A program made the position numbers and the translations under genes. The notes under the pieces are model-generated. The model was not told the DNA's origin. It did not search any database and saw only the letters and a program-made list of their open reading frames with translations. Shown piece by piece: positions 46,630 through 63,019 of a stretch of DNA of 64,000 nt (position 1 is the stretch's first letter; the number at the start of each line of letters is the position of its first letter). Source of the DNA: Helicostylum pulchrum (taxonomy: Eukaryota > Mucoromycota > Mucoromycetes > Mucorales > Mucoraceae); NCBI GenBank assembly GCA_025677825.1, contig JAIXMO010000023.1, positions 248,001-312,000 on the forward strand. Direction: 5' to 3'.

Positions 46630-46711
46630 CGTCGCCTGCAGGATTTGAACCTGCGCAGGCAGAGCCTATATGATTTCTAGTCATACTCCTTAACCACTCG
46701 GACAAAGCGAC
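46630..46711 (-). tRNA. tRNA-Ser (anticodon AGA)
   Basis: On the minus strand the 82-nt sequence folds as a class II tRNA. The acceptor stem GTCGCTT pairs with AGGCGAC (one G-T pair), and the discriminator base is G, as in Ser tRNAs. The anticodon stem-loop is TATGA-CTAGAAA-TCATA with anticodon AGA. A long variable arm and the T arm GCAGG-TTCAAAT-CCTGC follow. There is no intron. Confidence 0.95.
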
Positions 46712-58520: not shown

Positions 58521-58784
58521 GTTGTGTGGGTTATGAAAAAAGAAGAAGAAAAAAAAGGGTTAAATAATAACAAAAAAAAAAGTTGGGAGAAAAAAAAGAA
58601 ATGAAGAAAACATTCTTCTAGTTTAGGCAAGTTTAGTTTTGTGTGGGATTGAATTCCGCAAACACTACGCGCACACACAAACTACACACTACATAAAGAC
58701 ACGTAATCCTGTCCCCCCCCCCCCCCCCTCCGCCCCCGCCCTTTTTTGTTTTTGTTTTCTCATCTTCTTTTTTTTTAAACAAAA

Positions 58785-59699
58785 ATGGCTAATAATCTTG
58801 CACCTGATCAAAGATATTCACGCTTAGAAAAGTTGGGAGAAGGAACTTATGCGACAGTGTTTAAAGGAAAGAATAAAGTAACAGGAGAGATTGTTGCTTT
58901 AAAAGAAATTCATCTTGACCCAGAGGAAGGCGCACCCTCGACAGCGATTCGAGAGATATCTTTAATGAAGGAATTAAAGCACCCAAATATTGTTCGCTTA
59001 CAAGATATTATTCATACAGAAAATAAGTTGAGTTTGGTATTTGAATTTATGGATCAAGATTTAAAAAAGTTTATGGATTCTACGGCGAGAGCTACTCAAG
59101 GGGCGTTAGAACCTGGTATAATCAAGTCGTTCATGTACCAACTATTAAGAGGAATTGCTTATTGTCATGAGAACAGAGTGTTACATCGAGATTTAAAACC
59201 ACAGAATTTATTGATTAACAAGCACAATCACTTAAAGTTGGGAGATTTTGGTTTGGCTCGTGCGTTTGGTATACCTGTCAATACTTTTTCAAACGAAGTG
59301 GTTACTCTTTGGTACCGTGCTCCCGATGTGTTATTAGGTTCGCGCATGTATTCGACTTCGATTGATATTTGGTCTGCTGGTTGTATTATGGCGGAAATGT
59401 ATACAGGACGACCTTTATTTCCTGGTACGAATAACGAAGATCAGTTACAAAAGATATTTAGATTGTTGGGTACTCCTAATGAACAGACTTGGCCCAATAT
59501 TACACAGTTTCCTGAATATAAGCAGCCTCAAGTGATTTATCCTATTCAACATATCTCTCAGATTTTAACCAATATTGACTCTTGTGGATTAGACTTGTTA
59601 AGTCGTATGTTACAATATCAACCTCAAATGAGATTAAGCGCAAAAGATGCTTTAAGTCACTCTTATTTTAACGAAGTTAGATACATGTTTACTGATTAA
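58785..59699 (+). CDS. pho85: Cyclin-dependent kinase Pho85/Cdk5 type, 304 aa
   Basis: This is an intronless gene. All kinase motifs are intact: [19 protein letters not shown], the cyclin-binding [14 protein letters not shown] helix, [47 protein letters not shown]. The PSTAIRE plus [16 protein letters not shown] activation loop, with Ser/Asn rather than the Thr of Cdc2, is typical of Pho85/Cdk5. Pho85 with its cyclins controls phosphate and nutrient signalling, glycogen and polarity. Leader sequence contains a long C-tract (58708-58727). It is convergent with the HAC1-like gene, 149 bp apart. Confidence 0.95.
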
Positions 59700-59848: not shown

Positions 59849-60774
59849 TTAGTTGCCAACCTGTTGACCTTCCCAGTCAAATAATTCATCCAATTGAAAG
59901 TCTTGAGTTGAATAAACAGATTCTTCATCAGATGAAAAAGTAGAAGGGGACAACATTGGGGATGGTAATAATAAATTTCTTCTTTGCTTGATACTCTCAA
60001 CTGGTTTCACAGCCTCCGCTGCAGGGAAAAAGAGAGTGTAAAAAAGGTGATAATTTAAAAAAAAAAAGGTAGTTGAATTATGTTTTTTTTCCATTGGGTG
60101 GTGGAGTGGTTTTGAGTTTGACTTTATATACACATAATTGAACGCTTCTTTTTCAAGTTGCACCGTTTTAAACCTTCCTTCTTCGCGATCCGTGCTGAAT
60201 CGCAAAAGTCATGAAACAAGATGGGAGAAGTAGCATTGAATTTAATTTGAGCTTGCAAGTTTGCTAGTTGCCTAGTAAACGCTTCTAACTGAGAATTTAA
60301 TACGGCATTTTGTTCTTCAAGAGTCTTTACTCTCTTGTTGGTTTTATCATTTTCTTGCGCAAGTTTTTTGTTGGTGCTTTCAAGATCGGAAACATATCTG
60401 CGCTTTTTATCACGAGACTCCTGAGCAGCAGCCCTATTACGCAAGATTCTATTATTTCTATTAGTTTACAATAGCAATAAAATAACCTTTCTTTTTTTTT
60501 CTTCCTACCTTTCTTTGGTCTTTTGATCTTTGTCATCCAATGAGAGCCTGGATTTCTTTAGTGAGACAATTGATTCTGAAGAAGAGTACTGTTCAGATTC
60601 AGAGGACACAGAAGATGCTGATGAAAAGGATGCTTGTCTTTTTTGAGGCACAGACAAGGGAGATACTAAAGGATCCATAGTGAAGTTAACAGGTAAAGAT
60701 AATAACTCGGTTAAATCGTTTACACTGTCGTTGCTGTTGTATGTTGTTTTGTTGTTGTTATTGTTATTGTTCAT
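59849..60774 (-). CDS. hac1: HAC1/XBP1-type bZIP transcription factor (unfolded protein response), 230 aa when spliced at Ire1-like sites
   Basis: Exons (minus) are 60774-60509 and 60448-60195, then after a 173-nt intron 60021-59849; the joined frame is open. The basic region RILRNRAAAQESRDKKRRYV has the N-RAAAQ-SR signature of Hac1 and is followed by a leucine zipper (LESTNKKLAQEN, VKTLEEQNAVLNSQL). Hac1 is the factor whose mRNA is cut by the ER sensor Ire1 during protein-folding stress. Without splicing, the frame ends at 60124 with a short basic tail (196 aa). With splicing, it gains a Ser/Pro-rich and acidic C-terminus ending DELFDWEGQQVGN. Hairpins at both intron ends and a leader-intron complementarity are listed separately. 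The ATG at 60774 is the first ATG of the open frame. The rival reading is an ordinary GT-AG intron (donor GTTTAA near 60173, acceptor CTGCAG), which also keeps frame. Confidence 0.85.
60013..60029 (-). promoter_or_regulatory. Putative 3' Ire1 cleavage hairpin of the HAC1-like mRNA
   Basis: In the RNA, UUUCC pairs with GGAGG (two G-U pairs) around the seven-base loop CUGCAGC, which is identical to the 3' loop of metazoan XBP1. Cutting after CUG (between 60022 and 60021) gives an exon that reads in frame to the stop at 59849. Confidence 0.75.
60087..60102 (-). promoter_or_regulatory. Intron element complementary to the HAC1-like leader (16 nt)
   Basis: The RNA reads ACCACCCAAUGGAAAA inside the Ire1-type intron. 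It is the exact reverse complement of the leader segment at 60810-60825. In budding-yeast HAC1, such pairing blocks translation until the intron is removed. Confidence 0.75.
60185..60203 (-). promoter_or_regulatory. Putative 5' Ire1 cleavage hairpin of the HAC1-like mRNA
   Basis: In the RNA, GCGAU and AUCGC form a 5-bp stem, with a U-G pair closing a seven-base loop CAGCACG. Cutting after CAG (between 60195 and 60194) leaves a phase-1 exon end that fits the 3' site. The loop has the invariant C1 and G3 of Ire1 sites, but C instead of G at position 6, so this is the weaker of the two hairpins. Confidence 0.6.
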
Positions 60775-60809
60775 TATTGAATTTTTTTTATTTATTTTTT
60801 TGTTATTTA

Positions 60810-60825
60810 ACCACCCAATGGAAAA
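60810..60825 (-). promoter_or_regulatory. Leader element complementary to the HAC1-like intron (16 nt)
   Basis: The RNA reads UUUUCCAUUGGGUGGU, ending 36 nt upstream of the ATG at 60774. It pairs base for base with the intron element at 60087-60102, with no mismatch or G-U pair. This position, just before the start codon, fits a block to ribosome progress. Confidence 0.75.
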
Positions 60826-63019
60826 TGTATACAAAATAAAAAGTCGACTAAAGAAAAAAGCTTACAAAAAAGTACGTTTTTAATTTTTATAGTAAAATTT
60901 TGGTTTACAAAAAAAGCTTGACCAATGAAATTGAAACAAGTGTTTAATTCTTGAACAAACACAATTGCGGTTGAATATATTTCCGTGGTATTGCTGCTCC
61001 TTCTATTTACGTGTTCATGCGTTCCTGGTAAGTTTTTTAATAGTTCTTTTTACAGTAGTATACCTTTTTTATATGTTGATATATGTCGTCGTCATTGTGG
61101 TACCAACAGCTGAAAATCAGCGTATGTTCCCTTTAGTAGGTACACTCCTTCCTTCACTTTAATAAAATACAATTACGTAATAATGCACTGCATTTACATA
61201 ATATATGTATATTGTCGTCGTATGATATCATAAGCTGAGGATAAGAGAACTCGTACATGTAATAAAAGCAACACGCAGATCAATTTTTTTATTGTAGTAC
61301 AATCAAAGAAATGAATACATGCTTGCTGATATAAGGTTATAAATCAAAATGTGTTCTCTATAGTACAGTGTAGTACCATTGACAATAGGTAAAAATGAAT
61401 ATGACAATGTAACAAACATTACTACTTTTTGTTTATTGTTCTAGTTTGAATTGTACAACCGTGGCTGATAAAAAAGATATATAATTCCTTTATACTGAAA
61501 CCAGTTTCATCAATACTACTTGGTAATAGTTAAAACGTAACGGTTTAAGTGGTTGTTGTTCATGAACATAGTAGTATACCAAAGATGATAACAATCGATA
61601 AGAACCCATGCACTTTGTCGGCTTCAAGACAGTATTCTATTGTTCTTTATATAAATTTGAGATTGATCAGTGAAAAAGTTACCGACAACCATTAAAAAAG
61701 TTACAGGTAACTTTTCCGTACCTACTGATTGGTTTCTAGATTTAGAAAAAAAAAAAATACATGGATAAAAAGCAAATACGCAGCATATTTTTTGAAGATT
61801 GTAAAGGAAAGAAAAGTGATTTATTCTAAAACGACAAAAGATAGAATAAATACAGCTTAGGGCTGATAAAATGGATCTATTTAATCATTTTTTGCTAAAG
61901 GCTAAAATCCTGTATTATACGATTTTAAGAAAACAAGTTTTTACAAATGTAGTGTATTTTTAGCTGTAAAAGAAACAATTTTTTTTTAATCGTCATCATT
62001 AGACGTTGTTGCTTATTACTTTCTTAATCTTCTTTTTTTTATGTGTAAACCATTATTTGTAATCAAGTGCTTAAAAAAAAAGTATAAACAAACAAGTGCG
62101 ATTATTACATGTCTTTCAAAGTGTTACAAATGGATTGGTACTTGGTTTTTTTTTTTTTTGTTACCTAGCCTACGCACAGACTACATAATCAATCTAATTT
62201 CCTTTTCTTTGGTTATCGTTATGGATACCGTTGCAAAGGTTTTTTTTTCTTTTTCCTTTTCTTTCTTTCTTGATCGAACGCTTTACCGTATATACTTTTT
62301 ATAGCGTGAGTCATTTGATAACAAAAACAATAGTGCGTAAACAAATCTCTTTAAATGGCTCAGTTAAGAATAAAGCTCCGTCTAAAGGTTATTTACGCCC
62401 GAGAAAAAGTTCCCAAAGTCACACACACACAATCTTTAGTCTAGGCACTCTTCGTTTCGGAATAACCATTTTAAAAAAAAAGATACAGATACAAAATCAA
62501 ATAATAAATAGTCACTGCGAAAAGGAGAGATGGGCTGAAGATAATAAAATCACGGTCAAGAGTATATACACGTACATATACAAAAAAAAAAAAAAAAAAA
62601 AAGGTTTTTTTTAATGTGGTACAAAAAGAAATACTTGATTCCCGCCTCATCAGAAAAAAAGAGTAGAGAAAAAAAGATGTGTACTGATATCATATTCGTA
62701 TGACAACTAAAAAAAAACTAAAAAAAATAGTAACAGTATCAAAAAAGAAGCGTGCCGATCCGTTTAAACAATATTCTTTTTTTTGTTTTAAAAAAAGTTG
62801 TCACTTTATAGAAACGACAAATAAAAAAAAAAAAGTCTTTCCCCACGGCAACTCTATATATTAGAAGATGTCCTTTTTTTTTTAATACCCCGACTTTTTT
62901 GTTATTTAACTTTTCGCCCTTTTTTTCTTTTTCTTTTTCTTTTTCTTTCTTTCTTTGCATCTTTTCTTTTCCTTTTTCTTTTTAAAAAAGAAGTTGTTAC
63001 GGTACAAAAAGTTATAACT
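60826..63019. other. Intergenic region, 2.2 kb
   Basis: Upstream of the HAC1-like gene and of the NDT80-type gene. It is AT-rich, with A/T-tract hairpins and TTTC repeats near 62925-62985. No gene or RNA was recognised; open frames at 60965, 62041 and 62231 are low-complexity. Confidence 0.5.

Follow-up and report, generated by a model that had tools for sequence, protein, structure and literature searches.

A predicted leader-intron pairing in a HAC1-type bZIP mRNA of Helicostylum pulchrum and the legibility of its arms in other Mucorales

We describe a bZIP gene of HAC1 type in a 64,000-nucleotide stretch of the genome of the Mucorales fungus Helicostylum pulchrum (hereafter the window), in which a segment of the 5' leader, TTTTCCATTGGGTGGT (60825-60810, minus strand), is the exact reverse complement, over 16 nt, of a segment of a 173-nt Ire1-type intron, ACCACCCAATGGAAAA (60102-60087, minus strand). 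We consider it quite probable that the pairing of the two segments blocks translation initiation on the unspliced HAC1 mRNA until Ire1 takes out the intron. Since the layout of the pairing is that of yeast HAC1, the simplest reading is that the same lock is at work. The proposal is based on the pairing and its uniqueness, the anatomy of the intron, the presence of genes for Ire1 and for an RNA ligase domain, and codon readings of the arms in some other Mucorales.

The gene lies on the minus strand, with its start codon at 60774. The coding part of exon 1 (60509-60774, minus) runs from the start codon to a spliceosomal donor and is followed by a GT-AG intron of 60 nt (60449-60508, minus), which is missing in 14 short contigs of relatives. 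Exon 2 (60195-60448, minus) encodes most of the bZIP domain and ends at the 5' cut of Ire1, the Ire1-type intron of 173 nt occupies 60022-60194 (minus), and exon 3 (59849-60021, minus), which is kept in relatives, encodes the C-terminal part of the spliced protein, with the stop codon at 59851-59849. The unspliced ORF ends inside the intron, at a stop codon upstream of the intron arm (60124-60126, minus), and encodes 196 aa, and the spliced ORF, joined at CAG|CACG and CTG|CAGC (the bar marks the cut), encodes 230 aa. The predicted protein contains a bZIP domain (Pfam bZIP_2, 5.5e-09; bZIP_1, 3.5e-08), and these matches, together with the Ire1-type intron, bear out the HAC1-type bZIP assignment made in an earlier note on this DNA. 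The closest protein matched is from Helicostylum pulchrum itself (97% identity over 86%), followed by proteins of Mucor and Parasitella. Among the 67 relatives from the protein search, none is named Hac1, and we infer the orthology to Hac1 from the intron and the form of the gene.

No close paralogue was found in the same genome, in which four other bZIP places gave weak matches (4.0e-6 to 5.4e-4), and the DNA of 60050-60260 matched only itself there. At the bZIP gene, Rfam returned no match above the gathering score and five weak ones below it, and the PDB search matched one chain, the uncharacterized protein 6iak_A (6.8e-06). In the surroundings of the gene, a CDK-like kinase reading frame (58779-59699, plus strand), presumably of the Pho85 type, points towards the bZIP gene, leaving about 150 nt to the stop codon of the latter, and the two 3' UTRs may therefore meet or overlap; a tRNA gene is present at 46630-46711 (minus; Rfam, 57.6 bits).

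The intron-encoded tail of the unspliced protein (60194-60124, minus) opens with RIAKKE in many relatives, and several of the relatives' unspliced tails end in Cys or in Cys-Val/Ile (MCI, MCV, VCV, LCV and SVC). The tail might be a degron like that of yeast Hac1u, or a trace of constraints acting on the RNA. At the end of the unspliced frame lies TGTATATA (60132-60125, minus), which we take to be a PUF-type site. In the available part of one source, Puf4 is reported to act on the HXL1 mRNA of Cryptococcus (PMC6116095).

At the 5' splice site of the Ire1-type intron, a hairpin is predicted (60181-60207, minus) in which the loop CAG|CACG is closed by a U-G pair above a GCGAU/AUCGC stem. This hairpin is strong (-12.6 kcal/mol for 60208-60180), with RNAfold adding two pairs within the loop. 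The 3' splice-site motif, UUUCC-CUG|CAGC-GGAGG (60013-60029, minus), has a weak stem that is not part of the minimum-energy fold. Ire1-type introns are bounded by two hairpins with 7-nt loops and a cut of the CNG|CNGN type; against this consensus, the loop CAG|CACG differs at the sixth base and CUG|CAGC fits.

Predicted proteins of relatives, referred to below by their numbers, bear on how the intron is removed. Of 12 predictions in the frame of the 3' exon, 11 read the 3' splice motif as FFPAAE, and P0074 reads it as LFPAAE. The predicted junction, DSA|AE, is carried by the annotated proteins of Mucor lusitanicus (P0002) and Hesseltinella (P0033), the gene models of which would appear to rest on transcripts. 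No GT-AG pair is likely to give this junction here, and removal of the intron without GT-AG ends, changing the C-terminus, is thus represented among the predicted proteins of relatives by P0002 and P0033. Three further proteins, P0001, P0003 and P0004, are modelled with a GT-AG intron and the acceptor CTGCAG, as judged from the protein sequences.

The Ire1-type intron is retained in 14 of 14 short unannotated contigs of relatives from which the spliceosomal intron is gone. These contigs, of 975-1521 nt and with an exon-2 end recognisable by the motif FC[DGN]SA, are presumably transcripts, so that the unspliced mRNA seems to be the common form and removal of the intron not to be constitutive. 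Constitutive splicing, which the earlier note had named as an observation that would overturn its proposal, is therefore unlikely. The count leaves out P0055 (6.6-kb contig) and P0056 (31.6-kb contig), which are probably genomic and with which it becomes 16 of 16, as well as unannotated proteins, Mortierella-like ones among them, that lack the FC[DGN]SA motif. P0022 and P0030, which NCBI and lgn/jgi sources both list, were treated as annotated.

The genome holds both Ire1 and an RNA ligase. The Ire1 gene (G000:C136:92700-98500, L013) has kinase and 2-5A-type RNase domains in separate reading frames, and its RNase domain (PF06479, 6.1e-23) adjoins the kinase domain. A T4/Trl1-type RNA ligase domain was likewise detected (PF09511, 3.8e-59); the ligase kinase domain PF08303 gave no match in the genome, but it gave none in any control either. 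Frames upstream of the Ire1 kinase resemble a lumenal part and a membrane span, and the 490-aa frame located there matched no Pfam family.

The leader arm, UUUUCCAUUGGGUGGU (60810-60825, minus), lies at -51 to -36 from the start codon, and the intron arm, ACCACCCAAUGGAAAA (60087-60102, minus), at intron positions 93-108; both the exact complement and the 173-nt Ire1-type intron are thus found where the earlier note had placed them. The pairing 16-mer occurs at exactly two sites in the assembly of 32,194,346 bases, namely the leader arm and the intron arm, and a reversed control pattern occurs at none. Within the 64-kb window, the two arms form the sole inverted pair of at least 14 nt, at a spacing of 60-1500 nt, that survives a simple low-complexity filter; without the filter, the window contains 75 pairs of 16-mers, with overlaps counted apart. 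Shuffles of leader and intron that kept their dinucleotides produced a complement of at least 16 nt once in 2000 for a 100-nt leader and never in 2000 for a 150-nt leader. With two sites in 32.2 Mb and at most one shuffle in 2000, the rarity that had been estimated for the 16-nt match holds up. The perfect pairing, at 16 bp, also exceeds the length of at least 11 bp that we required of a leader-intron attenuator, and the 16-bp duplex alone amounts to -26.0 kcal/mol. The total duplex energy of -28.5 is not extreme: 500 shuffles averaged -22.2 (sd 3.9) and went as low as -39.8, presumably because runs of A and T pair well.

Upstream of the arm, the motif TATAAAA is present at 60885-60891 (minus) and, if used, would have the cap precede the leader arm by about 30 nt. 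At a distance of 17 nt upstream of the arm lies a second leader block, TTTTTTCTTTAGTCGAC (60843-60859, minus). This block looks like a 3' splice site and contains the palindrome GTCGAC, and a leader intron could end with TTTTTTCTTTAG, which immediately precedes the leader arm.

We compared the relatives by way of predicted proteins that read through the intron or the leader, scoring codon compatibility with the arms; scans of viral contigs and genome contigs for the relatives' DNA gave no confirmed relative. A protein search with the frame of the 3' exon returned 13 proteins, 12 of them new. PPNG, which is a reading of CCNCCNAAYGGN, occurs in two of these, P0074 and P0078, and in the annotated Apophysomyces protein P0025 from the initial protein search, always within an intron read-through; by chance, sequence as AT-rich as this would give PPNG about once in a million residues. 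Several codon patterns were looked for, and among the 89 proteins scanned, in any frame, intron-arm patterns were found in these three only. Four 3'-frame read-throughs exceed 40 residues; PPNG is found in three, and the remaining one (P0073) starts with ME. The same start, as the ATGGA of the arm would give, is seen in 7 of the 12 3'-frame predictions, with 3% expected after M, in a count that is biased by the preference of gene callers for ATG; in P0075, ME stands just 6 aa before PAAE and probably stems from another ATG, and leaving this protein out gives 6 of 11. The arm core occupies intron nt 86-97 of 155 in Apophysomyces, as compared with 94-104 of 173 in the window, and in nine predictions aligned with the window frame the intron is variable save for its last bases.

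The unspliced tails of P0007, P0009, P0010, P0024 and P0032 reach intron nt 92-98, and those of P0011, P0019 and P0027 reach nt 116-131, without meeting an arm; the tail of P0005 stops at nt 86, and the spliced models P0001, P0003 and P0004 were not counted among the unspliced tails. In P0011, P0019 and P0027, therefore, either the arm has a different place or it is missing. P0078, apparently a close relative of P0007 and P0010, would have its arm further downstream, so that the place of the arm seems to be variable. No trace of the arm was visible in the proteins of Mortierella, Endogone and Bifiguratus, so far as their introns could be read.

Residues upstream of the Hac1 start are provided by three relatives, P0054, P0055 and P0020, and amount to 132. 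The 11-nt core of the leader arm fits FPLGG in P0054 and HWVG in P0055, in two different frames; two of the three upstream extensions thus match, with 0.0012 matches expected in 132 residues, and the 13-residue extension of P0020 contains no match. In P0055 the fit is limited to the core and does not reach the flanks, and its species yielded no intron arm. From the arm to the start, the distance is 26 codons in P0054, one codon in P0055 and 35 nt in the window. P0054, a Mucor/Parasitella-like form with 94% identity to P0010 in the aligned part, has leader codons for which Watson-Crick pairing with the intron of each of the three PPNG-bearing relatives is possible at all 15 positions and certain at 9, 9 and 7 of them. 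In addition, FFSLVDLF of P0054, about 11 codons upstream of its arm, fits the second leader block TTTTTTCTTTAGTCGAC.

A search for leader read-throughs, carried out on the 8000 candidates sharing most words, afforded 10 new exon-1 proteins, none of which extends into the leader: eight start with Met at the Hac1 start, P0082 is the window's own protein, and P0089 is a fragment of 38 aa. No relative was found with both arms, and no compensatory change was seen among the predicted proteins, so that conservation is judged for each arm separately and not as covariation. Read by codons, either arm is legible in some other Mucorales, each in different relatives, and may be conserved there.

Folding of the modelled mRNA gave results that vary with the 3' end chosen. 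With the 3' end set at the stop codon or at the intron end, the pairing lies inside the minimum-energy fold at 37 C; with the end at the stop codon, forcing the pairing costs 0.44 kcal/mol relative to the minimum at 20 C and nothing at 25 C. If the modelled mRNA is extended through the 3' UTR to 59700, a fold containing the pairing costs 3.9 kcal/mol more than the minimum-energy fold; the leader arm then binds exon 1, and the pairing probability is zero at all four start sites tried. Local folding places the leader arm among the less accessible 16-mers (lowest 16%) and the intron arm at the average. Whole-mRNA folding is thus equivocal as to whether the pairing would form in the cell. The duplex of yeast HAC1 is likewise described, in the available part of PMC5114014, as just marginally stable.

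The pairing might instead serve Ire1, either by folding the mRNA so that the splice-site hairpins are presented or by shielding the mRNA from decay while it is silent. Some additional help with folding is conceivable, since the 3' hairpin is weak alone and falls outside the minimum-energy fold, and the codon readings of both arms in relatives would suit any role of an RNA duplex. However, the leader arm lies shortly upstream of the start codon, in the layout of the yeast attenuator, and a splicing aid needs neither, so that we regard a function for Ire1 as unlikely. We give little credence to the idea that a single protein binds both arms as DNA, in the promoter and in the intron, and that their complementarity has nothing to do with RNA. 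The core contains ATTGG/CCAAT, presumably a CCAAT box, and the TATAAAA at 60891 suggests a nearby promoter; yet such a box covers 5-6 bp and not 16 exact bases twice in 32.2 Mb, and a site of opposite orientation within an Ire1-type intron would be unexpected for a promoter box.

Chance complementarity in an AT-rich gene would agree with the one shuffle in 2000 that reached 16 with a 100-nt leader, with shuffled duplex energies down to -39.8, and with the three relatives that read to intron nt 116-131 without an arm. A coincidence is nevertheless very improbable, as the pair is the only one of at least 14 nt in the window to pass the filter, is unique in the genome, and has either arm legible in relatives. 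It is scarcely credible that the 173-nt intron is removed constitutively by the spliceosome, whether whole or in a shorter GT-AG form, so that no lock is left. P0001, P0003 and P0004 do read as GT-AG-spliced with the acceptor CTGCAG, but all 14 short contigs without the spliceosomal intron retain the Ire1-type intron, relatives that read KKER or KKEL lack the GT of that donor, and the DSA|AE carried by P0002 and P0033 would not be obtainable from a GT-AG pair.

We thus favour a block of initiation by the leader-intron pairing. Without ER stress, the spliceosomal intron would be removed and the mRNA exported with the 173-nt Ire1-type intron inside, and the cap-near leader element (-51 to -36) would form 16 bp with the middle of the intron and make it harder for the small ribosomal subunit to load. 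Upon ER stress, Ire1 would cleave at the two hairpins, the ligase would join the exons and the intron arm would depart, whereupon the spliced mRNA would yield the 230-aa factor with its new C-terminus. In this scheme, the leader arm is taken to be transcribed and to lie near the cap, and the duplex to form in the cell and to block initiation there.

In yeast HAC1, as described in the accessible part of PMC8881652, the leader segment from -38 to -20 pairs with 764-782, the cuts are at G661 and G913, and 11 bp suffice. When the duplex was shifted 24 nt further from the cap, the block was relieved, and it acts at initiation (PMC8881652, PMC5114014). The earlier note speaks of stalled translation in yeast; in line with these two sources, as far as they are available, the block is assigned here to initiation and not to an arrest of elongation. 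The gene of H. pulchrum resembles that of Saccharomyces cerevisiae in having an Ire1-type intron in the mRNA of a bZIP factor of the UPR and an upstream leader segment that pairs with the middle of the intron, where the intron arm occupies positions 93-108 here versus 103-121 in S. cerevisiae (reckoned from the available text of PMC8881652). Both also encode, in the intron, a tail of the unspliced protein, which in yeast is 10 aa long according to the part of PMC5114014 at hand. The gene described here differs in belonging to the Mucorales, in the length of the intron (173 nt versus 252), in having an extra spliceosomal intron, and in that the block is here a prediction.

Long introns of 297 and 177 bp are also known from Kluyveromyces lactis and Hansenula (Ogataea) polymorpha, respectively, and are thought to pair with the 5' UTR (PMC6116095, PMC10608004, in part). 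These two species belong to the Saccharomycotina, however, and the pairing there is, in the same partial sources, predicted. The short-intron genes HAC1, hacA, HXL1 and XBP1 share the Ire1-type splicing switch of a bZIP mRNA, with introns of 19 nt in Candida albicans, 29 in Yarrowia, 56 in Cryptococcus and 26 in XBP1. They differ from the gene described here in that leader-intron pairing is thought not to act in C. albicans and C. neoformans (PMC6116095, in part), and in that Aspergillus nidulans and Trichoderma reesei are proposed to shorten the leader instead (PMC10608004, in part). The leader block has been tied to the long introns of Saccharomyces yeasts in the available passages of PMC8002603, PMC6116095 and PMC10608004, and a survey by Hooks and Griffiths-Jones (2011) is cited in those of PMC8002603, PMC6116095 and PMC6222058. 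Among the titles and the beginnings of abstracts of the papers listed, in a literature that mostly leaves subscription journals uncovered, we found no report of HAC1 leader-intron pairing outside yeasts, Mucorales included.

The present results suggest that a known kind of control extends to a new, distant lineage, whose arms are its own and reappear in some relatives. We lean somewhat towards the view that the lock is an old device kept in Mucorales, with the near-invariant core CCAUUGGGUGG / CCACCCAAUGG, and that it either goes back to the common ancestor of Mucoromycota and Dikarya and disappeared where introns became short, or arose on two occasions in the same arrangement. If it is conserved in Mucorales, the same control would operate in a distant phylum, and its ancestral versus convergent origin would be testable with public genomes; the Mucorales would then also offer natural variation for a mechanism that is known in detail from one species.
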